Of a DNA stretch of 34,898 nt, positions 2,656 to 26,460 are shown in pieces. The notes under the pieces were generated by a model. The model had not been told where the DNA came from. It ran no database searches and saw nothing but the letters and a program-made list of their open reading frames with translations. The translations under genes were made by a program, and so were the position numbers. The number at the start of each line of letters is the position of its first letter. The stretch's first letter is position 1. Source of the DNA: Spirogloea muscicola (Eukaryota > Streptophyta > Zygnematophyceae > Spirogloeales > Spirogloeaceae); assembly GCA_009602725.1 (NCBI GenBank), contig WELB01000341.1, positions 1-34,898 of the forward strand. Direction: 5' to 3'.

Positions 2656-4707
2656 TCAGAAAATTGGAAAGCCGCCAACCTGAACGTACTTCCCAACGGA
2701 GGGGACGGGAGGCTGGCCGCCAGTGGGCGTCATGACCACGTAGAGCAGATAGTACCCAGGCGGGGCCAGGTTGGCAGTCGGCGGTGCCGTGGCTGTGACC
2801 GATCCCATCGCAGAGGCCGTGATTGCCAGGTTCAGTAGCCGCTGGCTCATCAGGTCACCGTGAGTAGCAAAGCCCGTATCGATCAGAACCACAGCCGCGC
2901 TTGAAACGGTTGTGCTGCTGGTGTAGGAGACTGTGAAGCTCTGACTGTATGCCAGGGAAGAAGGGAAGCTTGTGATGGTTGGCTGCGACACGCCGGTCAG
3001 CAGGTAAGGCGGCGCAAACGCTTCCAGGTCAAGAGGAGTGCCTGCTGCATAGGTGGCGGTGTTGGGCAGCTGGAACGCGTTGCCACCAGCGACAAAGATG
3101 CGCCCATCTGGCACAAGCGTTGCCACTGACTGGTACATGCGCTGAACCGTCGAATTTGCTAGGATCGTGAAGCGGCCTGAGGCCCCAACTGCTTTGGTTG
3201 TGTCCAGTAGGTACGGCGCATATGCAGGCAAGGTGGGTGCCTTGGGATTGCCAGCCGTATCTGCCAACGAGAGTAGCACATGTATAAGCACCAGCACCGA
3301 ATGCTCCCATTCGTTGGCTGCAGTAATCCCTTACCCCTAAACCTAACCCCTAAACCCAAACGCTAAAATCCAAAACCCTGGACGCAACAGTTTCCTGAAA
3401 AATTTGTCCCTGTTAGGCGTGCCGTAGTGGGCGGCAAGTGTCCTATGAGGCATGCAGTAGTGGGCGGCAAGTGGCTTACAGGCAGCGCCATTGCGGGCGC
3501 CATTGATGATGATGATGGCGCCAGTTGGTACCAGCACTGCAAAGCTCATGGTGCGATTCCCCGGCATGCTCTCGTACTGCCATATTGCACCAGGTGCCTC
3601 GGTGTCGATTGTGCCACACGATGACGTTGGCGGATACCCGCCTCCGCACACAATGATGCTGACGCCAAACCCTGTGCTGGCCTGTAGTGGCAGTATTGCT
3701 GAAGCTGCTGAGAAGGGGCTGTCACGGCCGCTCAGGGACGGGTCAATCTCAGGGTAAGTCTTCACGCATGCGCCACTGACCGTGATGTTCAACTCGCAGA
3801 CCTGCAGGATACAACGGAAGGGTAAGTGCTCCTCTTACTTGCCAGCCTCCTGGCTTGACAGCACGCAACAAGCACCAGAAGCTGCATGCAAAAAATATTG
3901 CAGAAGGAGATTGTACCATGGTGTTGGCGAGGACGAAGATGTTTCCATTCTTGAGGAGGTGGATGATGGGGTAGAGATTGTAGGGAACTGAGTTGGCCAT
4001 GATGTCCATATTGACGTACTTGGCCGTGGGTTTAAATACAAACTCAAATGAGGGCGAATTCTGGAATGATGAAGTGGTGTCGTTGGTATTCTGCTCGCCG
4101 CCAACAATCAGCGTGTTGCCAGCGGGCAGCCGCAGCGCCGACGCTTCATACCTATAGGAGACATGTGGGTGCAGGAGCCACGTCACTTGCGTTCGAGAGG
4201 CACATAGGAGCTACATTGTAAGGCAGCAAAGAGTAGCAGGACACGTGTTGATACGTGGTGCATGACACCTCAGAAGAGAAGGTCAATAAGAGTGCTGGAT
4301 CGTGTCCCCATCGCGTATCAGTCCCTGCAAAGGCAAGTATGTTCACCTGCGGCGTGCGAGGTTGGCCACTTCGCCAGCGAAGTCTGTGGTGCCTGCTGAA
4401 TCTGGGGCGAAGGGTCGCACGGCCGTGAATGCAGTGGAGTTGGAGCTCCAGCCTCCAAGGACAAGCACAGTACCGTTCGGTTGTGTGGCACCACAAGCAC
4501 CCAGGGCGTTGAATGCAGGGCCCACAAGGCCACGGACGCTGCCTGTAGCAATTGTCACCTCCGCCGCATGCGCGTACTGGCTGGGGTTCGCCGTCTGATT
4601 GAGCTTGGTGACAGCAATGTCTGTGCGGTCAACCAGCAGCAAGCGGCCGAACCGCGTGGCAATGCCGTGGTGGGGGCTGATGCCCAGCGTTGCAATGGTC
4701 GTCCAGG
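2656..4707 (-). other. Oxidase module 3 (degenerate active site)
   Basis: Third module, from TSPWTTIATLGISPHHG to the C-terminus GGFPIF. It keeps TH in GFATHGDLMSQR and a Cys in LGACGAT. The RWY motif is RYEAS across the 4346-4152 intron, so Glu aligns with the radical Tyr. The Tyr-His pair is RMYQS, so the His is lost. Introns at 3916-3802 (phase 0) and 3479-3261 (phase 1) match the two intron positions of module 2, which suggests that these two modules arose by internal duplication. Confidence 0.7.
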
Positions 4708-7700
4708 GGCTGGTTGGTGGCGGCGGTGGCACCGGCGGTGGTGGTGACTTTGCAGGCGGTGGCGGCGGTGACGCCGGCGGTGGTGGTGACTTTGCAGGCG
4801 GTGGCGGCGGTGACGCCGGCGGTGGCGACGCCGGCGGTGGCGGTGACTTTGCGGGTGGTGGCGGCGGTGACTTTGCGGGTGGTGGCGGCGGTGACTTTGC
4901 AGGTGGTGGCGGCGGTGACGCCGGCGGTGGCGGTGACTTTGCAGGTGGTGGCCGCGGTGGCGGTGGCGGTGGCGGTGACTTTGCAGGTGGTGGCGGCGGT
5001 GACTTTGCAGGTGGTGGCGGGGGTGGCGGTCGTGCAGGTGGTCGCGGGGCTGGCGGTGGTGGCGATGCTGGCGGCGGCGGCGGATATGCTGGCACGCCTC
5101 CGACCTGCACCCAGACTGCTTTGGAAGGCACACGGAGTCCGGTGGTCGTCGACTTGGGCACGGCAAACATCATGTAGTACCCTGGCGGGGCGACGAAGGC
5201 ATTGGGCGGCGCCACGACGCTGACGGTTGAGCCCGACACGGTGAAGACGAGGCCTTGCACCCCACGCTGGCCCATGTTGAGCCCGTGCGTGCTGAAGCCG
5301 GTGTCGATGAAGACCACGATCAGTGATGGGGCGTCGAACGCGAAGGAAGTGAGCGTGAAGGTGAAGAGCTGGCCGTAGCCCAGCGTGGTCGGCGCACTGG
5401 AGATGGTCGGCTGCGTCTGGCCTGTCTGTAGATAAGGCGGAATAAAGGCTTCCACAGACAGGCTCGCTGGTGGTGCCACATACTTTGCTTGATTGGGTGC
5501 TTGCACGGGATTGCCGCCAGCCAAGATGACGCGAGCATTCGGGTCGAGCAGCGCCGAGGCCTGGAACATGCGGGCTTGCGTCGCAGATGAGAGCACCACA
5601 AATCGGCCCGAAGCACCGATCGCCTTTGTGGAATCCAGCAAGTATGGTGTGAGGACGGGGTTTTGGGCACCGTTGTTGGCTGCAGGATGGACCTCACCAG
5701 GCCGGTCAGTACAAAGATGATGCAACCGAATGCATCGACAGAATTCAGATGCAGAGTGGTGCAGACGACGAGAGGGGTGAAGGCAGCTGAGCTGCTCACT
5801 GGCAGAGCCGTTGGCGGCGCCGTTGACAAACAGGATGTCACTGGTGGGCAGAATGATGCCGGCACTCATTGTGCGGGGCCCCGGCATGGACTCGTAAGCG
5901 TATGCTGGAGAAGCATCGCTCGGGCTGATTGTACCACAGCTAGATGTCGGAGGGCTGCCACCACCGCAGAAGGTGATGCGCGCCTTGTAGCCATCCGCCG
6001 GGCCGAGGACCTGAAGCACCGACGCGGCCGGGTACGGGTGGCTACGTGGCATTGCTGGCCCGCCAGAGCCGATTGTGAGGTTGGGGAAGGTGCGCAGGCA
6101 CGTGCCGCTTGCCGTCAGATTCACCTCGCAAGCCTGTCATGCAGTCGCCGAGACGCCTTTCAGTGAGCTGCCAAGAAGGCTTCTTGGATGCCTGCTAAGC
6201 CTTCCTAGAGGCTGCTAAGAAGGCAGTGAATGATGAAAGGGTCTAGCATAGTCTTTCATTCAGCCATGGTGGCCAGAGCAGGCGGCAATGATGGAAGGAG
6301 GTGGCTCGAATGAGAGGACGGAGAGTAGAGGAAGGCAGGTCTAGAAACGGAGTGGGAAGATCAGATAAGAGGGAGGAGAGGGAGGGGGGTGTGGGGAGGA
6401 ACACAGTGAAGGAGGGAGGAGATGGAGGGAGGGTGCAGTGACCTGGGTGTCGGCGAACAGGAAGAAGGTGCCAGTGGGAAGGAGGTGAAGCACTGGGTAG
6501 AGGTCGTAGGGCAGTGTGCCGGCGAGAAGCGGCAGTGACAGCAGGTTCTGGCCTGGCGGCTTGATCATCCGCTCATACGTCGGCTGATGGTGGTTACTGT
6601 CGTCAGCGTCATTGCCGCTGCTCGAGCCACCAAGGAAGACGAGGTTGCCATCGGGCAGGCGGTGCGCCGCGCCGCGGAAGCGCGATGCGCCCATCAATGT
6701 CGTGGCGCCAAAGTCGGCCAATGGCTTGAACTGGCGAATAGCACGGAACTCAGCCCCGACGACCTTCGCGTAGCCCCCTGCAACTATGACAGTGCCGTCG
6801 GGCGTGGTGTGGCCATGGCACCCGAGGTCATTGAGGTCCGGTCCAACGAGCGCGCGAGAAGCACCAGTTGCGACAGTGAGCTCCACGGCGTGTGCGTACG
6901 CTGATGCATTAGCTGGATTGGCAACCCCCGTGACGGCAATGTCGGTGCGGTCAGTGTAAAGGATGGTGCCGGCCTTGGTGAGCACAGCATACGTCCCAAC
7001 GATGCCGATATTGGTGTTGAGCACTAGGAAGTTGGCACCAGCGGGGGCAGGCGGCGAAGGGGGCGGGGGATTGGGGGNTGCGGCGGGTGCGGTGGCGGTG
7101 GCGGTGGTGAAGGAGCAGGCGGGCGTGGCGGCGGCGGCGTGGGGAAGCCGCCGAGCTGCAACCAGGGCGCGACCGAGGGCACGCCGTTCGAGACGGCGAA
7201 GAGCATGTAGTAGCCCGGCGACGCAATGCCCACATGGGGCGGCGCCACCGCGGACAGTGTCACCACCTGCGGGCTTCCCACCTGCATGACAGCACCAGCA
7301 GCTGCGACGCATCAGCTCTGGGCTGTTGCGGGACAGGAGAGGGAAGGAGGGAGGGTTGCAGGCAGGCAGCGGTGTGCTTCGATTGATGGATTGGAAGTTG
7401 ACGCGGCAGCTTGCCAAGGTTCACCGGCGCTCACCGCTGATGTGACAGTGTAGGCGCAGCGTATGGCGCGCTGGCCCATGATGAAGGAGTGAGTGTTGAA
7501 ACCAGCATCGAGCAGCACCAGCTTGATATTGGAATATGAGATGCCCGCCTGGACGAGGCTGAACTGCACGGTGAACGTCTGGCCATATGCGAGCGACATC
7601 GGCGCGCTCAGAATCTGAGGCTGCGGCTGCCTGAGACAGCAGAGAGCAGTGCCGGCCAGCAGGCGTCAGTGTGGAGGGTGAAGGAGTGGAGGCTATAAGT

Positions 7701-13179: not shown

Positions 13180-14250
13180 GGCTCGCCCATAGAGAAGAGG
13201 GGCTGGCAAAGCCAGCCCAAAAAGAATGGACAATGTCCAAAGCCAAAGAAAGAGATGCCAAAGAAGGACTACTCTACCAAACACAACATCACACTAGGGA
13301 AGCTCACTACCCACGAGTGAGCAACAGCAGGTCAGAACAGCTCGATGCGGGAAAGGGAAGGGGGCCAGAGGAAGCCAGAGGAAGCGCTAAGAAACCAAAG
13401 CACACAAAGAAAGAAAGCAGCTACAAATTACTCAGTAACCCCTGCTAAGCAGCCGCAAATCAGAGAGGCTAGGGTCCTGGAAGTGGGTCCCCTGGACAGA
13501 GCCAGAGGCAGCAGCGAGGGCTCTCCCGGCACGAAGGTGCAGCGCACGGGCCATGGACCTCTGCAGCGAGACGGCCAAGCGCATGCGATACACTTGCGCC
13601 AGCGACCCGGCTGCAGGGAAAGGAGGCGCTCCGCCGAGACCCGGAGGCGGCGGCCAGAGCGCGTCCTGCGCGCGTGTGGACTGCGAGGGCAAGGGAACGT
13701 TGGAACGATACTGCCAGGCGCATCCGAAAGACTTGGGCGAGCGACCCGGCGGCGTTGAAGGCGGGCAGCGCCCCGGGCAGACCCGACCTCCTTCAATAGC
13801 CTGACGGGCAAGCCGCTGGAGGAGATCCAGCCAGCGGCTGCCGAGAATGAAGTAGCTACGAAGCACTCAGTAACTATTGTTGAGCATCCGCAGCTCGGGA
13901 GACACTGATTCCCTCGTAGCGGGTCCCCGGACCAAGGGCCAGACAGGCTGCAGCCAATGCGCAATCGACACGCAGATGCAGCGCGCGTGCCATTGACCGC
14001 TGCAGCGAGACTGACAGGCGCATGCGATACACCTGCGGGAGAGAGCTTGCTGCGTTTGAAGTCAGCCTGCTCCCCGTGGTACTTGCGGGATACAGCGGGA
14101 TACAGCGCTTCGCGAGAGCCAGTGGAGGAGCCTACCCACCTAGCGCCAAACGCCCCGCGGAATACGACGTCGATAGCGAACGTCGATTGCTTTCTTTGGC
14201 CCCTTCGAACTCTGTTCATTCTTCTTTCACTGGGCTGGCCTCTCAAGGCC
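13180..14250 (-). mobile_element. Run of fused LINE tails
   Basis: Minus strand. A degenerate tail (about 14190-13880) is followed by a tail of the FRMRLAVSFQRSLA...HTRAG type (about 13750-13625), fused to a tail of the YRMRLAVSLQRSMA...HLRAG type (about 13618-13432) ending LRLLSRGY-stop. A 3' UTR with the stem-loop at about 13200-13218 follows. No copy has an RT core. Confidence 0.5.
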
Positions 14251-16236: not shown

Positions 16237-16256
16237 GTGTCCTTCGGGACATCCGT

Positions 16257-16288
<32 letters not shown>

Positions 16289-16338
16289 GGCCCCTGCGCA
16301 AGGATGACACGCACAAATCGAGAAATGGTCCAAATTTT
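16237..16338 (+). ncRNA. U6: U6 spliceosomal snRNA
   Basis: Nearly identical to plant U6. It has the 5' stem-loop TGTCC-TTCG-GGACA, then AAAATTGGAACGATACAGAG with the ACAGAGA box at 16272-16278, the AGC triad at 16284-16286, the TGCGCAAGGATGACACGCAC segment and the GGTCCAAAT 3' end. It terminates in seven T (16335-16341), a Pol III terminator. U6 pairs with the 5' splice site and U2 in the spliceosome core. All functional elements are intact, so this is probably a working gene. Confidence 0.93.
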
Positions 16339-16341
16339 TTT
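16335..16341 (+). terminator. Pol III T-run terminator of U6
   Basis: Seven consecutive T directly after the conserved U6 3' end. Confidence 0.85.
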
Positions 16342-16392: not shown

Positions 16393-16765
16393 TACCAACG
16401 GCATTCTGCAAGTGAGCAATACCATGCCCATCACCACGGATTCTCAGGGACGCCATCACCGTCGCACCCTAGACATTGTGGGTGTGCAACCTGGCGGAGG
16501 CCCACGAGCTCTGGTTGATGTGGTCGTGACGGCGTCGTACAAGAGTCCAGCATCGACTCACATTGCTGGCCACGCAATGGGAGGTGCAGAGCAGAGAAAC
16601 TCCCGCAGTGATCACCTCCGACCAGCCGCAATTGACCGCTTCCGCTGCATGGGTCCTCGCTTCCACACCCTACTTCACACCGCAAGTCTGGGGTATGCGC
16701 AACGTGAGGATATGCTTCCAGCCGAGATGGGCATGCCGGCAGCCTACTTATCATTTTTGCAACGT
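16393..16765 (+). mobile_element. LINE ORF fragment, left part of split copy
   Basis: The plus frame has [20 protein letters not shown], homologous to RRVDLVATPQAGGPRLLLDV of the inverted copy at 12.7 kb, then degenerate sequence to AAYLSFLQR at 16765. The copy is interrupted by the gypsy element and resumes at 26298. Confidence 0.6.
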
Positions 16766-17101
16766 TGTCATGAGATATCCCGTCGGTGGCCCACTTGTGT
16801 CGATCTGACAAGGATGGTGACGTGGAAGTATACGTGGACATTACAGGTGGACTCACATTTGCTCTAGTGTGAATGAGTCGCAATCAGGTCACCTCCGGCT
16901 CCACGTCAGTCAGGAAAGATTCGCACCAATCCGGTTCGGTGTCGGAGCACCATCCGATCCGCCGCCGTGCCTTCCCCCATCAACGGCAAGCAGCCCTTCC
17001 TGCCGCCCGAACCGCTCAAATAAAGCCCAAAGAAGCCGAAAAGCCCTACGTCCACTTCGATGGGTGTGCCCCCACCTTGACAAGTGCTGGCGGGTACCGG
17101 C
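16766..17101 (+). repeat. 5' LTR, incomplete
   Basis: 336 bp almost identical to 25262-26056 once the nested insertion there is removed. It contains an AATAAA signal (about 17019-17024). It lacks the distal 228-bp part that the 3' LTR has at 26070-26297. Confidence 0.8.
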
Positions 17102-18009
17102 CAGGCTAGCGGCGGGTAAAGGTAGGTAGGGATAGAAATTACAGTCTCGGGCTACACTGGCCGTCGAGACGGTCTCAGGCTACACTGGCCTTGGGACCTG
17201 GGGTGCCAAAAGGCCAAATGGCCAGCCCCCAAAACCCATGTAATTCTTTGCCTGACCAATGATAAGGGGTGCGGAGGGTCGGGGCCGAGCAGTCCACTCG
17301 GCCCAGTCTTTTGCTCTTGCCAGAACTGCCCCCAGCGCCGCCGCCGCCGCCGCATTGCCGTCGTCGCGTCTTCGCTGCTGTCGAGCCACGCCAGGAAGGC
17401 GTGGGCTCGCAGGAAGGGCAGCCGCGCTGCTAAAAAGCGTTACCCCGGGGGACTCCGCTGCCGGTCGCGACAGAATCGGTGCACAGGTAAACCACGAAAC
17501 ATCGTGACCTTGTGCGTGAGGTGCAGATATCGAGTATTGCCTCGGTCTGCTCTGAGGTTGCCATACGTAGTCTTGCATCACTGGATCTTGTGGCAGTAAC
17601 TGGTTCTCGCACTCCGGTGCCGGTTACGGTTACTTGGAAGTTGCACTCCGGTGCAATTACAGCAATTACAGTTACTAAAAAGTTGCACTCCAGTGCGGTT
17701 ACAGTTACTTGAAAGTTGCACTCCGGTGCGGTTACGGTTACTTGGAGTTGCACTCCGGTGCGGTTACTGTTGACTGGAATCCGCACTGCTGCGCTGGCCT
17801 ATTATTGCTTGGCTTGAGCTCTGCTGCATCGAGTGCCGTGCATCTTGTTCACGACATACTCGTTTTACTGGGCCGAGTGGACTCCTCTTTGCATAGAACG
17901 TGTCCTTGCTGTGAAGATTTGACCTTTGAGTGATCACATTTGCTTGGAACGTTGCTTGCTTTGAAGACACTCTGTGTTTGTTGTGGACAAGTCACATTGT
18001 ACACAGTGA
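17102..18009 (+). other. Retrotransposon 5' leader
   Basis: Untranslated leader before gag. It contains a repeated GGCTACACTGGCC (17150-17162 and 17178-17190), a (GCC)n stretch near 17337-17353 and the tandem repeats at 17610-17783. Confidence 0.55.
17610..17783 (+). repeat. Tandem repeat, five ~33-bp units
   Basis: Five units start CACTCC(G/A)GTGC at 17610, 17644, 17686, 17719 and 17751; most continue GGTTACNGTTACTTGGAAGTTG. Spacings are 34, 42, 33 and 32 bp. They lie in the leader about 230 bp before the gag start and are not present in the LTRs. Confidence 0.85.
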
Positions 18010-19904
18010 ATGTATTTGAGGTCCGGACGTAGCCTGGAGTCTGGCATCAATCCATCGGACATTGCTCCTGAGATTGACGTTAATTCATCAGAATTTGTTC
18101 CCGTGCCCCTTGACGGTGTCGCAGATTCTTCCGAGGCAGTGATTCCGCGGAGGAAGCAAGTATTCACCATGGCTCAGAAACCAAGACTCCAATATCAAGG
18201 TATTCCCGGTGGTGCTTCTTTGGCCGAAGTCAAAAGTAACTATGAGGCGGAGATGTGTCAATTGGGAATGCAGGGATGCACGATAACCAGAAAATCTGCC
18301 ATGACCCTGCTGAGTCCGTATCTGAGTGAAGCTGCCGGTGATGTCTATAGAAGCTTAAAGGATTCAATCCTGGAACAGACCAAGCCCATCCCAGCTAATG
18401 CGACTGCTGCCGAGAGAGCGTTAGGTCCTCAGCTGTTGGATAACCCAGTAGAAGAGATGTTTAAGCGTCTCGCACAAGAGTTCCCGGTCAACACTACGTT
18501 ATTAGCAAGAATTGTTGAAGTTCGACTGCAGGCAGGATGAGTCGGTCGCTGTCTGCTATTTCCGTTTCAAGAAACTTGTTGAACAGTCAAAAACTGAAAT
18601 AAGTGAGAAGGAAATTGGCAGTACAGTTTCTGCGCATCATGGCTGGTAGATCTTTTGATCAACTGCTGAATCTTCTCATAATGAGGAAACAGTAACAAAA
18701 CAAGCAAGACTATGATTTAGCAGATGTCTATCAGGTCTTGCTGACCAAAGAAAAAGAAGATATCACACTGCAAACTGTCAATGAACATTTTGCAGGTCTG
18801 AAAGCTTTGGGCTCACAACAGACGACTAAGGACAAGGCAGCTACAGGTACCAGAAGTGCTCACGTTGCTTTGCCTAGCTCTTATCACAACGAAGATGTGG
18901 TACCTCACAGTCGTGTCTCTCTCAAGTGTCATATGTGTGGTAGACTGGGTCATCTTGAGAAAGATTGTCGGTTGAAGCATCAAACGAGTGGTGCTACCTG
19001 TGCATATTGCTCAAAGCCAGGTCACATCGAACAGCAATGCTGGCAAAAGAATCCTGCTAAAATGCCTGAGGCGCTGAGAGCAAAAATTGCATCAAAGAAG
19101 CCTCAGTATGATAGTAACAAGTCAAAAGGGTCACAATCCGATAAGATAGAGCAGATGGCTCTACAGATTGCTGACCTAAACAAACAGCTGGCTATGGCCA
19201 AAGCGCAGACCAGGAATGAAGTAGTCTCAGCTGCGTTATTTGATCCAGATGAACAGGAGGACCAGGATTATATCTCAGATTCGCAGCCCTCAGAGAAAAT
19301 TGACAGGTACCGCCCTGATGCTGATTACTTTCCTGCTGCAACCGCTATGGTTGGGTCTGAGATAAGTCGCAATCCTCTGAAGCGTGGAGAAACAGAACAA
19401 CAGCAAACAGTTAGGCTGGGTAACTCTAGATATCCGGCAAGTTTTAGGTTGAAGGAAGTTGAAGCCGACAGCCTATCACGCCGTGTCAAGCCTGTTTCAC
19501 CTGAGCCTATTAGCGACACAATTACTACCAACTGTTCTGTGTCCACTGAGAAACTGTTGGACAGGATATATTCCACACCGCTATTAAGCTTTGAGGATCT
19601 TGGTATACCCAAGGCCCAGCTAGGTGAAAGAATGCAAGCTTCCAATGTGTTGAACCAGGCAGTCACAGTACAAGTTGCAAGTCCTGCCGCAATGTCGGCT
19701 ACATCCATGACCAAGGTCTTGTCTGATACCATCCTTCCATGCAGACCTCCTACGGAGCGAACTGAACACCTCGCATCCGTGACGTTACTCGACAACTCGC
19801 AAGGGATAGTACAAGTTGCAACAACGAAAGCGACAGGGGCACCGAAACATGTTCTTTATGGACACAGGTGCCCAACCCATCTTAATTGGCTGTCACTTTG
19901 CTAA
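18010..19904 (+). pseudogene. Retrotransposon gag, frameshifted
   Basis: An N-terminal open frame at 18010-18540 (starts MYLRSGRSLESG) is followed by about 200 bp with stops in every frame, though coding continues in another frame (QDESVAVCYFRFKKLV). A second open frame at 18738-19904 holds two CCHC zinc knuckles, CHMCGRLGHLEKDC (about 18928-18969) and CAYCSKPGHIEQQC (about 19001-19042), which bind RNA in Gag. The break is probably decay of this copy rather than programmed shifting. Its 3' end overlaps the next frame by about 90 nt in the +1 register, which would allow a gag-pol frameshift. Confidence 0.75.
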
Positions 19905-21924
19905 AATGTTGAACCTTGGGAAGGATGACTTGATTCAAAACCAGGTCAAGATCATTACTGCTACTGGTGGATCAGACAGCGTAGTGGGGGTCACTAAGCG
20001 TCCATTGTGCATTACTTTGAATGCTCAAGATCCCAAGCAGCGTACTTCTTTCAAAGCTGTGTGCATGATCACTCGGGCAACCACATACGATATCTTGCTG
20101 GGTACGGAAATTTTGGTGCCATTGGGGTTCGGGATAGACTATTATGCTGAACTAGCATGGTACCGACCTGGCTGGAAGTCGTCTGGTACTCATAAGGTCA
20201 TGTTGCCTCTGTTAAAAGGGTGGAGTCCTTCTGACATATCAGCTAATACTGGCATCATTACTTTGGACTCAGGAAAGAAGAAGCAGGAAGAAACTGAAGA
20301 GTCCAAGAAGCCGGAAGAAGCTGATACCTCTGCTTTGCACGAGAAGGCTGACAACAGAGGCAAAAAGAAGGCCGAGTCTGCACATCCAGAAGAGTCTGCT
20401 CCTAAGAAGGGGATGGCTAAGTCCGCAGGTTCAGCGGGGACTTCTCAAGCAGCGGCCAAGAGTGGTACATCATCATCTTTCCAGGTTCCCCAAGTGCCTG
20501 AGACAGCTTTGCCCGTCATTGTGCCTGAGATACCTTTGGAGGTCATTGCGCCTGAACCACCTCAGCCACGCCCGCTGGTGCGCCTTATCGAGCCATTACC
20601 TGATATGGGCTTGACTCATGCCCAGTTGGAAGAGTTGCAAGTGGAGAAGAATTATGAACAGATTAAGGCAGCCAGGCTATGTTTTCCACTGGTAGCTCAC
20701 ATGCGCGCGCAGGAAGCATGGTCAGCTGCCACCTTGACTGCTCAGCCCCCAGTGGTCGCTACCAATGCTGAACGAGATGTCGCTGACGCCATAGGAACAT
20801 TCTATGATGGAGTAATTGAGTGGACGATACCACCAATGGGCATCGTCTTGATGGAGGTCTTTGGCGGAACTGCCAACGGGCTGAAGGCAGCACTGCAGAG
20901 CCACCTGAAGGTGGCGAAGTACTACTACATTGACAAGGATGATGAAGCTCGTGAGGCAGCTCGTCATCACATCAACTTCCTCAAGGAACAATACCCACTT
21001 CTGGTGAACGACTCCACTTTTGCCAAGTGGGACACCCTGTTGCCCCGGGACATTGCTCACGTCGCCACTTCTCCAGCTATTAGGAAGTTGCCAACAGTGG
21101 ACCTCCTAATAGCAGGGTTTCCATGTGGGGGGTTCAGCCCCATCGGCGAAGGTCGTGGTTTCCGACATCCTGAGACAGGGCTCTTTAAGGACCTGATGAA
21201 GTTGATGCACACTATTCGCGCGCGGCAGGATCGTCCTCTGGGATACATTATTGAGAATGTCATGCCGCGAGACAACCATCGCTTTGCGCGCAGGGACTTC
21301 AACACTGTATGCGAAATTTTGGGTCCGTACACTATATTGGACGCAGCATGCCTTGGGTCACTTGCGGATCGACGTCGAGTGCACTGGACAAACCTGGCTC
21401 CAGCCTCCATGCTGCAGACTTGCATCAACAGGCAAAACCGTCCCCCAGGCCTATTTGCTTATCAAGCATTGGACCCAGGTCGGGATGTGATTGATGTAGA
21501 TAATGGCAGCAGGCATCCATTCAACAAGCCGGGCAAACCCAGAGTAACCTTTCCAACCTTTCTGGCCACAGTCCAGTCTATGGCTTTTCGCATGCAGCCT
21601 TATGGGCCTGGACCAGGCATGGTTAGGATTGTCAGCACAGGAACATATGAGGAGCCTAATCCACGTGAGAGAGAGAAGGCTATGGGCTATGAGCCTGGAG
21701 AAATTACACTCCTGCATTTCTCGTTTGCAACTAATGTTAGGCTGACTGGGCAAGCTTTCGATGCCAACTCGATTACCTGGATGCTTAGCGTATGTAATGC
21801 TGTTCAGACACAGAAGAAGGTGAAACATCTCTACTTCACCACTCATCCCAATGGAATCACCGACCTGGATAGAGCATTGTTTGAGTTGTTTGATCCCCTC
21901 ATGCAGGAGGAAGAAGAAACCTAG
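19816..21924 (+). CDS. Retrotransposon protease fused to cytosine-C5 DNA methyltransferase
   Basis: An intact open frame of about 700 codons; the first in-frame ATG is 19849. Residues near the start contain the retropepsin motif FMDTGAQPIL. After a Lys/Glu- and Pro-rich spacer (about 20270-20620), a DNA methyltransferase domain follows with motifs in canonical order: I, MEVFGGTANG (about 20850); the acidic turn YYYIDKDDE; IV, the catalytic Pro-Cys in LLIAGFPCGGFSPIGEGRGF (about 21103-21162); VI, IIENVMPRD (about 21245); VIII, SLADRRRVHWTN; IX-like, EREKAMGYEPGE; X-like, LTGQAFDANSITWML. The motifs needed for catalysis all appear present. It ends at a UAG (21922-21924) in the same frame as RT. 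It would methylate cytosine at C5 in DNA; target and activity are unknown. Methyltransferase capture by LTR elements has been reported in dinoflagellates and a streptophyte alga. Confidence 0.85.
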   Translation: MQQRKRQGHRNMFFMDTGAQPILIGCHFAKMLNLGKDDLIQNQVKIITATGGSDSVVGVTKRPLCITLNAQDPKQRTSFKAVCMITRATTYDILLGTEILVPLGFGIDYYAELAWYRPGWKSSGTHKVMLPLLKGWSPSDISANTGIITLDSGKKKQEETEESKKPEEADTSALHEKADNRGKKKAESAHPEESAPKKGMAKSAGSAGTSQAAAKSGTSSSFQVPQVPETALPVIVPEIPLEVIAPEPPQPRPLVRLIEPLPDMGLTHAQLEELQVEKNYEQIKAARLCFPLVAHMRAQEAWSAATLTAQPPVVATNAERDVADAIGTFYDGVIEWTIPPMGIVLMEVFGGTANGLKAALQSHLKVAKYYYIDKDDEAREAARHHINFLKEQYPLLVNDSTFAKWDTLLPRDIAHVATSPAIRKLPTVDLLIAGFPCGGFSPIGEGRGFRHPETGLFKDLMKLMHTIRARQDRPLGYIIENVMPRDNHRFARRDFNTVCEILGPYTILDAACLGSLADRRRVHWTNLAPASMLQTCINRQNRPPGLFAYQALDPGRDVIDVDNGSRHPFNKPGKPRVTFPTFLATVQSMAFRMQPYGPGPGMVRIVSTGTYEEPNPREREKAMGYEPGEITLLHFSFATNVRLTGQAFDANSITWMLSVCNAVQTQKKVKHLYFTTHPNGITDLDRALFELFDPLMQEEEET

Positions 21925-22863
21925 CAACGACAGTTGATCAGGCAGGTCCATTCTTTGACAGCATATCAGTGGCAAATGGGTCCTGACCTGACTGCAAAAG
22001 AGAATGCATCACTAGTCAAGTTGTTGAACTCAAAGCTTGCAGCTTTTGCTTTTTCCTCAGCTGATCTGGGTACCTATACAGGTGCTCAATTTCAAATCAT
22101 CTTGGATAACGATAAGCCTATTTTCAGGAAAAGATACAAATTGTTTGCAGTTGAAAACCAGTTCATCAATGACAAATGTCAAGAGTTGTTAGCTAATGGT
22201 TTGATAGAACCATCCCACAGCTCTTATGCAGCACCAACCGTTTTACCTGCCAAAAAGGATGAATTTGGCAACTACACCGATAGGCGAATGTGTGGTGATT
22301 ACAGACAACTGAATGCCGCCACGCCTTTGGACCGCTACCCCATGCCAACGCCTGAAGAAATCTTTGACCGTGTTGGCGCAAGTAAAATCTTTTCTGTACT
22401 TGACCTTAGGCAGGGCTTCAATCAAATCAACATTGAGCCTCGCGACAAACACAAAACAGCATTCTGGGGGGTGGACCAGGGTATCGATGTTTTATACCAA
22501 TGGATTAAAATGCCCTTCGGACTTAAAAATGCTCCAATTATGTTTCAGCGAGTCATGGATGCAGTACTCCGAGGTATCTCCTTTGCTCGTTGTTACATTG
22601 ACGATGTACTGATTTTCAGCAAGGACTTCTCAGAGCATATGACTCATATTACAGTGGTACTGGACACAGTTCACTACGCTGGACTTCGGTGTCACCCAGG
22701 CAAATGTCGATTTGGACTCACGGAGGTTGTTTACTTAGGTCACCAAATCTCCGACCGCGGCTTATCACCTCACGATGCCAAGGTTCAGGCTGTACTTGAA
22801 ATTCCAGCACCCTCATGTCTTAAGTCGTTGCGCTCTTTCCTTGGCTTAGTCAGTTACTATTGA
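21925..22863 (+). pseudogene. Reverse transcriptase domain, ends at premature UGA
   Basis: Same frame as the methyltransferase, after its UAG. Palm and finger motifs are visible: ANGLIEPSHSSYAAP, CGDYRQLNAATPLDRYPMPT, FSVLDLRQGFNQI, MPFGLKNAPIMFQR and the catalytic CYIDDVLIFS (equivalent of YxDD), then YLGHQISDRG and LRSFLGLVSYY. The frame is closed by TGA at 22861-22863, within the usual connection motif (SYY.RFIPDFS is readable beyond it), so this is a nonsense mutation rather than a natural end. Confidence 0.85.
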
Positions 22864-24058
22864 CGTTTTATTCCTGATTTCAGCTCCCATGCTCGACCTC
22901 TAAATGATTTGTTGAAGAAAGATGAATCGTGGAATTGGACACCAACTCGTGATTCAGTTCCAACAATTGAAGGTTGCTTTGACACAAGCTCCAGTTCTGC
23001 GGCGTCCTGATTACGATAAAGACTTCTTTCTTTTCACCGATTGGAGAAAAGTGGGAATGGGTGCAGTTCTTACTCAGCGAGACGAACATCAACATCATTA
23101 TGTGATTGCCTATGCTAGCCGTAGCAATACATCTGCTGAGGCTAATTATTCCGCATACGAAGGTGAATGTTTAGCTGCAGTATGGGCCGTCACCCACTTC
23201 CGTCCATATCTACATGACAGACCTTTTCAATTGATTACAGATCATCAACCTCTACAATGGTTGTTGACCACTCAGAACTTGACAGGAAAATTGGCACGCT
23301 GGGCATTGAAGCTTCAAGACTATCAATTCAAAATTGTTCACAGACCAGGTCTTCGAAATATGGATGCTGATGCCCTCAGTCGTATGCCACTACCTACCAC
23401 GGATTCTCCGCCACTAGCTCACATGGTAATACGAGCAAAGCCAGACTTTTCATACCTTGCTCATGCTCTTACTTCATCATTACATAAATATCCAATTGCT
23501 TGCGCTTTGGATGTTATCGACGACGATATCTTTTCCGAAGATGTATGGTTAGACGCGCCAAATCTTCAATATCTTCAGACTGGCATCTATCCTCCACATT
23601 GTACAACAATGCAGAAGGACCGTATTAAGCACCGAGCACGTCGTTATATCTGGGACGATACACAACTCATGAAACCCCATACAGAATATGGCAATCAAAT
23701 TGTTCCACCACCAGCAGTACGAGTGCAACTGGTGCACGATGTTCATACATCTCTTGGACACTTTGGCATCAAACGGACTATCAGTTTGCTAGCCACTAAG
23801 TACTGGTGGTCAGGTCTTACACGAATGGTCAAACATGTGCTATCCACATGCGAAGAATGTGATAGAATTCGCAACACCTTTTCATTGAAGTCACCTGAAC
23901 ATCATCCATTGCCTATTCGGGGACTGTTTTATAGATGGAGTTTGGATTTGGCCGGTCCTCTGCGCAAAAGTCCCCACAAATCTTACGTACTGATTATGAT
24001 CGAACATTTTTCCAGGGTAGAAGTGGGTAGAAGTGGTCACCATTCCGACAAAGTCTAG
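22864..24058 (+). pseudogene. RNase H and integrase N-terminal/core, frameshifted
   Basis: After the UGA the RT frame reads on as RFIPDFSSHARPLNDLL, then slips by one base near 22960. The next open frame (22922-24058) has RNase H (LFTDWRKVGMGAVLTQ, then EGECLAAVWAV, then LITDHQPLQWL), the HRPGLRNMDADALSR tail, the integrase zinc motif (H...H, then CEEC) and the first catalytic Asp in WSLDLAGPL. It ends in a frameshift at 24016-24036. Confidence 0.8.
24017..24036 (+). repeat. 10-bp tandem duplication causing a frameshift
   Basis: GTAGAAGTGG occurs twice in direct succession inside the integrase core. The integrase frame before it continues in a different frame after it (TIPTKSSVYIAEAFL). Confidence 0.8.
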
Positions 24059-25034
24059 TGTATACATCGCTGAAGCTTTCCTGACCCAAGTGCTATCCAG
24101 ATTTGGCGCTTGCGCTGAAGTGCTCACTGATCAAGGATCAGAATTTCAAGGTGACTTTCAGCGTCTCCTAAACCAAACGTTTATTGATCACCGCCTTACC
24201 TCACGAGACCATCCTCAAGCAGATGGATTAGCAGAACGCATGGTACAAACTATTAAACGAGGTTTGACAAAGTATGCGCTCCGCAAAGGCACAGAACGGT
24301 GGGATAAGTTCTTGCCATGGCTAATCATGGGATACCGAAAGTTGAAACAAACTGCATTGTCTGCATATATTCCATACTTCCTATTATACGGACGTCATCC
24401 AGTAATCCCTGTAAGCCTTCATGCTGTCGCAACAGAAGTGGTTGATCTTGATAGCCGAAAGCTATAAGTCAAAGTTTGTACTGAACGTGGGAAACTCTTC
24501 AAAAGACATATGCCTATTGCTTTGGATAATTTACGCATAGCACAACATCGAGACACTCAGCGTTACGCCACTACTCGTAGTGGTAATTACCAACCAAAAC
24601 TTAACACAATTGCCATCAATGACTATGTCTACCTAAGGGTGAAACCTCAAGATGCACTTGATGCTTCTACAGGTCCATTCATCTATAAAGTTGTTGGCAA
24701 AAATTTATCTGGAGTTGTTCGCTTGCAAGGCTCTTGTGGTAGGGAGATTTCGGATCACATCCACAATATCACACCTTACCACATTTCCAACATTGACACT
24801 ACCGTTGACCCTACCAGGCAATGGGTCTCAGCACACTTAACTTGCGAAGTGTGTCATCGGGAGGACCAATCAGCAACCATGCTATTATGCTCTGCTTGTA
24901 ACAAGGGGTGGCATATTCACTGTTTAACGCCACCACTGACAAGCATACATACTGATGACTGGTTCTGTACAGCTTGTGTGGATCGTGACCCAACTCTTCA
25001 TCCTAGTCCGGACTCACAGTTAGGGGGGGGGTAA
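24033..25034 (+). pseudogene. Integrase C-terminal half with PHD finger
   Basis: Continues the integrase core: second Asp in EVLTDQGSEFQ and Glu in HPQADGLAERMVQTIKRGL, then the GPY/F-like region. A TAA at 24465-24467 interrupts the frame, which resumes in register. Near the end (about 24838-24990) is a C4HC3 PHD finger: CEVC, then CSACNKGWHIHC, then WFCTAC. Many chromoviral integrases carry a chromodomain at this place; a PHD finger typically reads histone H3 tails. The frame ends in a G run and TAA (25032-25034). Confidence 0.8.
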
Positions 25035-25259
25035 TTTGCAATCATCCATCACAAGCTCAAAGTCTACTATCGTACTATTACTAGCCTATCTTTTCAGCAA
25101 TGCTTTTGTTTGCAAATAGGAACACCTAATTTTGTGAGTTTTATTTTCTTTAACAATGTGTTGCGCTACCTATCACGTAAACTCCAACAATCTCACTTGA
25201 ACTTCTGACCAATCTGTTGCATCGACGTTATATGGCACTCGACACTCCGTGGCACGACA
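25032..25259 (+). repeat. Extra partial LTR copy before the 3' LTR
   Basis: 228 bp about 97% identical to the last 228 bp of the 3' LTR (26070-26297). It is joined to the coding end at a nine-G run (25023-25031) and followed by GC and then the TG start of the 3' LTR. The G run could be the polypurine tract. Confidence 0.8.
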
Positions 25260-25261
25260 GC

Positions 25262-26297
25262 TGTCATGAGATATCCCGTCGGTGGCCCATTTGTGTCGAT
25301 CTGACAAGGATGGTGACGTGGAAGTATACGTGGACATTACAGGTGGACTCACATTTGTTCTAGTGTGAATGAGTCGCAATCAGGTCACCTCCGGCTCCAC
25401 GTCAGTCAGGAAAGATTCGCACCAATCCGGTTCGGTGTCGGAGCACCATCCGATCCGCCGCCGTGCCTTCCCCCATCAACGGCAAGCAGCCCTTCCTGCC
25501 GCCCGAACCGCTCAAATAAAGCCCAAAGAAAGCCGAAGCCCTACGTCCACTTCGATGGGTGATGAGTTCGCGGCCCTGGCGATAGATGTTCACGGGGCCT
25601 TCGGCAGCCGCTGGCTGGATCTCCTCCAGCGGCTTGCTCGTCAGGCTATTGATCGGCGGTCGGGTCCGCCCGGGGCGCTGCCCGGCTTCAACGCCGCCGG
25701 GTCGCTCGCCCAGGTCTTTCGTATGCGCTTGGCGGTATCGTTCCAGCGATCCCTTGCCCACGCTGTCCACACGCGCGCAGGACGCGCTCTGGCCGCGGCC
25801 TCCGGGTCTCGGCGGAGTGCCTCCTTCCCTGCCTCGAGCTACTCGGACCTGATGTTGCTCACTCGCGGGTACTGAGCTTCCCTAGCATGTTGTCGTGATT
25901 GGTAGAGTAGAGGAGTCCTTCCTCGGCTTCTCATTCTTCGGCTTTGGACATTGTCCATTCTTTTTGGGCTGGCTTTGCCAGTCCCTCTTTCTTTATGGGC
26001 GAGCCTTCTTCTTGATGGGTGTGCCCCCACCTTGACGAGTGCTGGCGGGTACCGGCGGGTACAGGGGGGTAATTTGCAATCATCCATCACAAGCTCAAAA
26101 TCTACTATCGTACTATTACTAGCCTATCTTTTCAGCAATGCTTTTGTTTGCAAATAGGAATACCTAATTTTGTGAGTTTAATTTTTTTTAACAATGTGTT
26201 GCGCTACCTGTCACGTAAACTCCAACAATCTCACTTGAACTTCTGACCAATCTATTGCATCGACGTTATGTGGCACTCGACACTCCGTGGCACGACA
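25262..26297 (+). repeat. 3' LTR interrupted by a LINE tail
   Basis: Starts TGTCATGAG and ends CACGACA. Without the nested insertion (25562-26013 and one 8-bp duplication) it is about 576 bp. Its first 335 bp match the 5' LTR; its last 228 bp match 25032-25259. Confidence 0.8.
25562..26013 (+). mobile_element. Young LINE tail nested in the LTR
   Basis: 452-bp insertion flanked by GATGGGTG at 25554-25561 and 26014-26021; the uninterrupted site is visible in the 5' LTR near 17060. It has an open frame: LAIDVHGAFGSRWLDLLQRL, AQVFRMRLAVSFQRS, RAGRALAAASG, SYSDLMLLTRGY-stop at 25875. The 3' UTR follows with the stem-loop GGCTGGCTTTGCCAGTCC (about 25969-25986) and ends in CTTCTTCTT. Lack of terminal inverted repeats, 5' truncation and a short repeat tail fit a LINE. 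Confidence 0.75.
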
Positions 26298-26460
26298 ACG
26301 TCGAGTGTCAGCCTGTCTGCAGCGAGCTCAGTGCCTTCCATCAGAAAGCTGGTCGACCCTTAGCTGGTGGCACATGAGCTTTGTCTATTGCCGTCCGGTA
26401 TTCGGGCATCCGTTAGCAACCTCTATGTGCTGACTCGTGGTTACAGAGCGGGTCAGCTTA
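26298..26460 (+). mobile_element. LINE ORF fragment, right part of split copy
   Basis: Continues the copy at 16393-16765 in frame (RVSACLQRAQC), then degenerate sequence with KAGRPLAGG and NLYVLTRGY near 26420-26450. Confidence 0.6.

Follow-up and report, generated by a model that had tools for sequence, protein, structure and literature searches.

The window analyzed here, that is, the whole 34,898-bp stretch of contig WELB01000341.1 from the zygnematophyte streptophyte alga Spirogloea muscicola (assembly GCA_009602725.1), contains a Ty3/Gypsy-type retroelement of the Gypsy-Dnmt3 kind, in a copy that is dead but fairly young (positions 16766 to 26297). Its gene order is Gag, protease, DNMT3-like cytosine-C5 DNA methyltransferase, reverse transcriptase (RT), RNase H, integrase, and PHD finger; we are close to certain of this identity and anatomy. 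Among the copies of the element in the 153-Mb Spirogloea assembly (C-numbers designate contigs or places there), a stop codon followed by the hexamer CAR-YYA is conserved at the junction of methyltransferase and RT, which places the methyltransferase on the Gag side. From these sequences, readthrough of a leaky stop very probably connects the two halves; we strongly infer that the Gag product ends with the methyltransferase and that the RT is reached via readthrough. Spirogloea is the second streptophyte alga with the Gypsy-Dnmt3 kind, first described in Klebsormidium nitens (de Mendoza 2018, PMC5890265). The original prediction, a Ty3/gypsy element with a C5 methyltransferase between protease and RT, holds, and many copies have the enzyme; its attribution to a chlorophyte was wrong. 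The best protein match (P0001, SM000028S10147, s28:645431-648364) coincides with contig 28, positions 645431-648361, of the Spirogloea assembly, and gene identifiers of this form are those of Spirogloea muscicola (PMC12290401; PMC10541563).

The methyltransferase domain (20770 to 21921, plus strand; catalytic Cys codon at 21124-21126) ends an open frame of 704 amino acids (19810-21921) that also spans the protease. It matches the DNA_methylase family of Pfam (PF00145; E = 1.5e-10, 41.5 bits with a cut-off of 22), which confirms the domain that had been predicted. The sequence of motifs also agrees with the original prediction: a protease DTGA is followed, upstream of the RT, by what we take to be C5-methylase motifs I (VFGGTANG), IV (GFPCGGFS), VI (IIENV), VIII (DRRRVHW), IX (EREKAMG), and X (GQAFDAN). 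The motif IV cysteine is retained in 53 of 54 related domains, and its Pro is replaced by Glu in six. The closest fold and profile are those of DNMT3 and not of the tRNA enzyme DNMT2. In DRM, the plant rearranged DNMT3, motifs VI-X precede motifs I-IV; the order I, IV, VI, VIII, IX, X is not that of this family. In three metagenome domains (P0030, P0032, and P0036) motif VI is EHV instead of ENV, and the P0030 domain lacks the catalytic Cys. A search of the genome with the Pfam methylase family gave 71 matches, the eight best of which are all located at known methyltransferase places of the element; pieces that resemble a host gene split by introns, present three times, are located at C256, C168, and C234.

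The other coding parts, all on the plus strand, are broken in the window. The gag region (18010 to 19904) is divided into frames 18010-18540 and 18696-19904 and contains two zinc knuckles (PF00098, 4e-5, two stretches). The retropepsin-like aspartic protease (19852 to 20220), in a frame different from that of gag, was assigned from a below-cut-off Pfam score (12.6 bits, cut-off 24.3) and from alignment to protein P0002 (38% identity) and to other copies in the genome (44-97%). The RT (21925 to 22863; RVT_1, 1e-28) shares its frame with the methyltransferase and closes at an in-frame TGA; RNase H and the integrase zinc-binding domain (22916 to 24058; PF17917, 4e-37, and PF17921, 4.6e-15) follow in a shifted frame; the remaining integrase catalytic core (24021 to 24467) is in a third frame, with an rve match (1.1e-5) that is below cut-off in the window; and the C-terminal part of the integrase (24468 to 25034) includes a PHD finger (~24843-24977; PF00628, 7.5e-10), as it does in C2 and C157. 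The breaks are thus located within gag, between gag and protease, within pol, and after it. In C2, by comparison, two long frames are open: frame 1 (1411 amino acids) encodes a zinc knuckle and protease (below cut-off) and the methylase (above cut-off), and frame 2 (1021-1037 amino acids) encodes RT, RNase H, H2C2, rve (2.7e-11, above cut-off), and PHD. Gag, protease, and methyltransferase therefore share a single frame in C2, as they do in C157 (1203 amino acids to the edge of the stretch); the open frame that had been predicted from 19849 exists, but that position is not a natural start. The prediction had also emphasized that this frame is intact and its flanks broken. The frame is open, but, with ~6 breaks over ~7 kb of coding sequence (a rough estimate), an open 2-kb frame is unremarkable and so not telling, and the stop at 21922-21924 is conserved and not damage.

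The class assignment follows from the RT, RNase H, integrase order (H2C2 and DDE core) that Pfam identifies in the window, C2, and C157, together with a Ty3 Gag-Pol profile match (2.4e-54); the short target duplication and the TG...CA ends (vide infra) are likewise those of Ty3/Gypsy elements. Pfam detected no tyrosine recombinase domain in the frames scanned (seven from the window, four from C2 and C157); this and the presence of a target duplication set the element apart from the order DIRS. A full long terminal repeat (LTR) at both ends, the Ty3/Gypsy arrangement, is also absent: the left repeat (L5) lacks B, and the right end is B1-GC-A2-B2 (vide infra). The predicted 'LTR retrotransposon' is therefore only roughly right: it is a retroelement, but in the window copy the direct repeats are split and a full 5′ LTR is missing.

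We found at least 109 matches to the methyltransferase domain in the genome (a lower bound, 107 of 297 candidates having been scored; several may be pieces of one copy), and the domain adjoins the RT at the 28 junctions that were read, so other copies of the element do carry it. In 39 pairs compared, the ratio of nonsynonymous to silent divergence (dN/dS) of the domain is 0.10 to 0.24 in 8 of the 10 pairs with unsaturated silent sites; pairs that include the window copy are saturated for this domain. For the pair C134-C351, dN/dS is 0.16 for the protease and 0.09 for the RT, although values for the RT in other young pairs reach 1.04 (C174-C39). As judged from these ratios, which compare domain and RT as the original prediction had proposed, the methyltransferase domain is under purifying selection. 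The possibility that a host methyltransferase gene was caught once by one element as a passenger has nothing in its favor beyond the broken state of the window copy; the many genomic matches, the RT junctions, the 47 related proteins described below, and the purifying selection refute it, and we give it essentially no credence.

The silent divergence (pS) is lower in the RT than in the methyltransferase (0.47 and 0.81 for C2-C39; 0.32 and 0.77 for C30-C48), a gap that concerns copies C2, C39, C30, C48, and C59 and hints at exchange (recombination) between elements. Six of ~18 RT places without a nearby methyltransferase match were examined: C18, C290, and C123 have methyltransferase remnants, none was found in C36 and C101, and C142:374k is an assembly gap; relatives free of the methyltransferase may therefore exist. 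At C9:1343700-1347400 (L101), a 677-codon open frame, cut at the left edge of the stretch, joins Gag and protease to the PHD end and matches none of methyltransferase, RT, and integrase; we take it for a copy that has lost its interior and retains a PHD remnant. Gag-protease frames akin to it are located at C2:478544 and C59:677944. Inverted pieces or adjacent plus- and minus-strand methyltransferase fragments are present in L025 (C345), C91, C24, C365, C38:66k, and C18:625k, as though such elements often underwent palindromic duplication.

In the window, methyltransferase and RT are separated in their shared frame by TAG, followed by CAACGA (21922 to 21930), the site of the conserved readthrough-type signal. 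The junction was read in 28 copies including the window (stretch C27b ended short of it). A stop is located at the same position in 23 of these (16 TAG, 7 TGA, no TAA), and the next six bases are CAR-YYA in 19 of the 23; the nonfitting hexamers are CAACGA (window and C7a), CAATCG (C246), and CGATCA (C1). Directly behind the stop, 22 of 23 copies have CAA, even though glutamine is more often encoded by CAG in the C2 frames; at the second codon the amino acid varies (Leu, Ser, or Pro) but YYA is kept. As a control, CARYYA follows 8 of 534 stops that close frames of ≥100 codons in the fetched loci of ≥4 kb, a count that covers overlapping loci and both strands and includes the true junctions. The copies are related, so no simple probability applies, yet silent sites are saturated in 29 of the 39 pairs. 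RNA structure 3′ of the stop was examined in two copies, which did not agree on a signal (z = −2.0 and −0.4). The window copy has other breaks, so its stop at 21922 might be regarded as ordinary decay; however, 23 of 28 copies share a stop at this place, as TAG or TGA with the hexamer kept, and in C2 it separates two otherwise open frames, so we reject decay with hardly any reservation.

CAR-YYA after a stop is the readthrough signal of tobacco mosaic virus, with type I readthrough described for UAG (PMC2194720; PMC11166343). The Spirogloea junctions resemble this system in having an in-frame stop between two frames and the same hexamer, but differ in that seven of the 23 use TGA. The soybean element SIRE1 also has an in-frame stop between two reading frames; its readthrough leads to an envelope-like gene (from a title cited in PMC2194720), whereas the Spirogloea stop separates Gag-protease-methyltransferase from RT. 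In a fungal Copia element a UGA gag stop occurs without CARYYA (PMC3441728). Within the titles and abstract beginnings of the open-access literature that we searched, we found no CAR-YYA stop in a Gypsy element, which is not proof of absence.

Our search of proteins, in which 7994 candidates were scored, identified 47 relatives with several domain arrangements. Consistent with a Gag-side enzyme, 24 have protease and methyltransferase with no RT behind; some of these may be cut by contig ends. Besides metagenome proteins, they include four proteins from the liverwort Marchantia polymorpha (P0018, P0020, P0021, and P0023), two of whose records are named partial and for which a downstream RT was not looked for. 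In five metagenome proteins (P0022, P0024, P0025, P0030, and P0032) methyltransferase and RT are in one frame. In the remaining 18 the methyltransferase is behind RNase H or ahead of integrase, with both neighbors visible in 11 and a PHD finger in 13. No Klebsormidium sequence was recognized by name among the protein matches, and the viral contigs gave nothing useful; L092 and L093 (28% identity) were used only as control loci in the stop count.

In the methyltransferase tree (54 domains, with 17 of the 18), the RNase H/integrase-position group is one side of a 100/100 branch, the Marchantia proteins are one side of another, and eight Spirogloea copies group together, with C361 apart and weakly placed. 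The RT tree (33 rows) again has the Spirogloea copies as one side of a branch, and likewise the RNase H/integrase-position group; four Spirogloea RTs without an adjoining methyltransferase match stand apart with P0025. The trees are unrooted and contain no host DNMT rows, so one capture followed by a move is indistinguishable from two captures. The separate capture suggested in the original prediction is not supported; the element fits the charophyte Gypsy-Dnmt3 kind, DIRS-like repeats included.

The K. nitens Gypsy elements carry DNMT3, are under purifying selection, and have DIRS-like repeats (PMC5890265). KnitGypsy-Dnmt3 and the Spirogloea element share a streptophyte alga as host, Gypsy domains, an intronless DNMT3-related domain in unrearranged order, many copies, purifying selection, and (from the Figure 4 legend of that paper) DIRS-like repeats. 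They differ in that the Klebsormidium methyltransferase is described in the Pol polyprotein frame and that of Spirogloea ends the Gag-protease frame ahead of the stop, although the Klebsormidium elements may turn out to have this layout too. In the same paper, the SymbioDIRS-Dnmt3 enzyme of Symbiodinium methylates CG in yeast; SymbioDIRS-Dnmt3 and SymbioLINE-Dnmt are likewise retroelements with a cytosine methyltransferase, but are of the DIRS and LINE classes and have dinoflagellate hosts. A 2025 paper (PMC12344493) also notes that some DNMT3s of streptophytes and dinoflagellates are carried by retrotransposons, and names Copia and DIRS. The titles and abstract beginnings that we searched include no methyltransferase retroelement from Spirogloea or Marchantia; this is not proof of absence, since PMC9915684 and PMC8566536 mention Spirogloea, retrotransposon, and methyltransferase. 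What appears to be new is the leaky stop, the duplicated targets and their empty sites, the occurrence of such proteins in Marchantia, and the second arrangement of domains.

The unit extends ~9.5 kb from TGTC (16766) to GACA (26297), with TG...CA ends and ACGT on either side (16762-16765 and 26298-26301). The left repeat L5 (16766-17868) is followed directly by a stretch that resembles a primer-binding site and begins with TGG (17868-17884); the opening 336 bp of L5 (A1, 16766-17101) are found again toward the right end. There, a G-run that resembles a polypurine tract (25026-25034) immediately precedes repeat B1 (25035-25259, ending in CACGACA), and GC (25260-25261) joins B1 to A2, a truncated copy of L5 (25262-26056) that is broken up by a 0.46-kb insert; B2 (26064-26297, ending in GACA) closes the unit. 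Because A1 and A2 are 98.3% identical and B1 and B2 97.0% (over 234 bp), the insertion is fairly young. The 4-bp duplication is exact in five of the eight units read at both ends (window, C242, C39, C171, and C345), and three of four bases match in C95 and C77, as they do in C18 if one end base is taken to have changed. When the flanks are joined without the unit, they match at least 39 other genome places across the joint (40 of 1938 candidates were scored), and in the three that were read there is no gap at the joint and a single ACGT; these are empty sites of a high-copy repeat. Given the TG...CA ends, the 4-bp target duplication, and the empty sites, the unit was inserted in one piece, by a DDE integrase. 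A 13-base pattern of the putative primer site occurs at five places, that is, the window, C242:7691, and C5, C10, and C71, the last three <2 kb from other element matches; no tRNA with a matching 3′ end was recognized (C242:7691 was not looked at for a tRNA).

The split direct repeat order A1...B1-A2-B2 is a feature of DIRS/PAT-type elements. As we read the window, its repeats are in this order; the element differs from DIRS/PAT elements in its DDE integrase and 4-bp target duplication. An alternative is that B1-GC-A2-B2 records a head-to-tail pair (L5...B plus a short deleted unit) whose two members entered jointly, derived from a circle or concatemer. No second example of the exact GC joint occurs in the genome besides that of the window, and the other units with target duplications are L5 joined straight to B (the solo units C242 and, with three of four bases, C95) or L5-internal-B with single repeats (C345, which consists of L5, part of gag, an inverted piece, and B). 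These forms would also arise by recombination, A1 with A2 giving L5-B and B1 with B2 giving L5-internal-B, a similar A...B-A-B order is present in C2, and the 2018 paper reports DIRS-like repeats in the Klebsormidium family (PMC5890265); the head-to-tail pair is a possibility that we consider improbable but take seriously. The spacing from A to B is 1.35-1.5 kb in C39, C18, and C77 and 3.4 kb in C171 (only the ends were read).

The explanation that we consider probable as a whole is that of a Gypsy-Dnmt3 copy with a leaky stop, an enzyme made at Gag dose, and methylation of the element's own complementary DNA (cDNA). Translation would mostly end at Gag-protease-methyltransferase, with the full polyprotein as a minor product of readthrough; the methyltransferase would be produced in step with Gag instead of Pol, and therefore would be packed into the particle in bulk. 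In the particle or the nucleus, the enzyme would methylate CG sites of new cDNA before or during integration, so that a new copy would arrive premarked as host-like DNA. Taken on its own, this last step, methylation of the cDNA, is plausible but falls somewhat short of an even chance. The original prediction had likewise suggested that the enzyme could methylate element or host DNA, whether to evade host defence or to temper expression. Several observations weigh against the explanation. The Klebsormidium enzyme was inactive in yeast, a result that its authors judged inconclusive (PMC5890265). The window hexamer departs from CAR-YYA by one base, and five of the 28 junctions have no stop (three with sense codons and the hexamer kept, C134, C365, and C248, and two disrupted, C59 and C269); the stop is also not universal in the wider group, because the five metagenome proteins read from methyltransferase to RT in one stopless frame. 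Domain dN/dS values of 0.89 (C328-C65) and 0.77 (C174-C39) are as in decay. The split repeats, with their once-found B-GC-A joint, are drawn from the window copy, from the weaker case of C2, where A...B-A-B is seen at 75-90% identity amid tandem repeats, and from the figure legend of the 2018 paper.

The methyltransferase might instead restrain the element by methylating integrated copies or its own promoter, limiting copy number and sparing the host, one of the possibilities named in PMC5890265. This would suit copies that are old and varied yet keep the domain, and the observed/expected CpG ratio is 0.42-0.80 in the coding part and 0.91 in L5 and 0.98 in B1, as if the body were methylated and mutating. 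However, host methylases can deplete CpG, the right flank outside the element is also depleted (0.48), and, except where copies compete, selection within a family of elements would hardly maintain a gene that limits its own carrier; we consider restraint unlikely. We regard as slightly less likely still that the main substrate is not cDNA but RNA, or target-site chromatin acted on together with the PHD finger, the insertion landing in or creating a chosen chromatin state. The PHD finger is conserved at the integrase end of the copies and, as noted, is present in 13 of the 18 sister-group proteins, in which the methyltransferase adjoins the integrase; the enzyme of the Spirogloea group, however, is on the Gag side of the stop, distant from the integrase, and its nearness to DNMT3 and not DNMT2 speaks against RNA.

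A broader and decidedly speculative possibility, which we think unlikely in its entirety, is that the Spirogloea element belongs to an old, widespread plant-lineage group, from streptophyte algae to liverworts, in which DNMT3 is packed at Gag dose via a virus-type leaky stop, cDNA is methylated, and the DDE integrase inserts a circular or rotated form, so that the repeats end up split; in a sister group the enzyme would have been moved, or captured anew, to a site between RNase H and integrase. Methylation is a main means by which hosts check such elements, and it is paradoxical that selection should preserve a methylase in one of them. The Gag-side placement narrows the question, since it predicts bulk packaging, which is testable; through the Marchantia relatives, the system would become accessible to plant genetics; and the two positions of the same domain in the wider group are a natural comparison of the effect of position.

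Several neighboring features complete the window. A U6 spliceosomal RNA gene (16239-16339; 106.6 bits) lies 426 bp upstream of the element. The insertion target (16600-16765 and 26302-26420) is itself a high-copy genome repeat with at least 39 other matches. The insert nested in A2 (25562-26013, plus strand) has the 8-bp direct repeat GATGGGTG at each end (25554-25561 and 26014-26021) and is absent from A1 and from the unbroken A repeats of C345, C171, C242, and C95. Two frames related to this insert had no Pfam match, and its own frame presumably resembles the C-terminal end of a LINE reverse transcriptase; inverted relatives of the 0.45-kb insert are located at 13180-13844. On the minus strand, positions 2656-7417 contain pieces of galactose/glyoxal oxidase-like genes (PF09118, 2.5e-22 and 3.5e-22; PF07250, 1.9e-11) with proline-rich stretches, perhaps a tandem host gene cluster.

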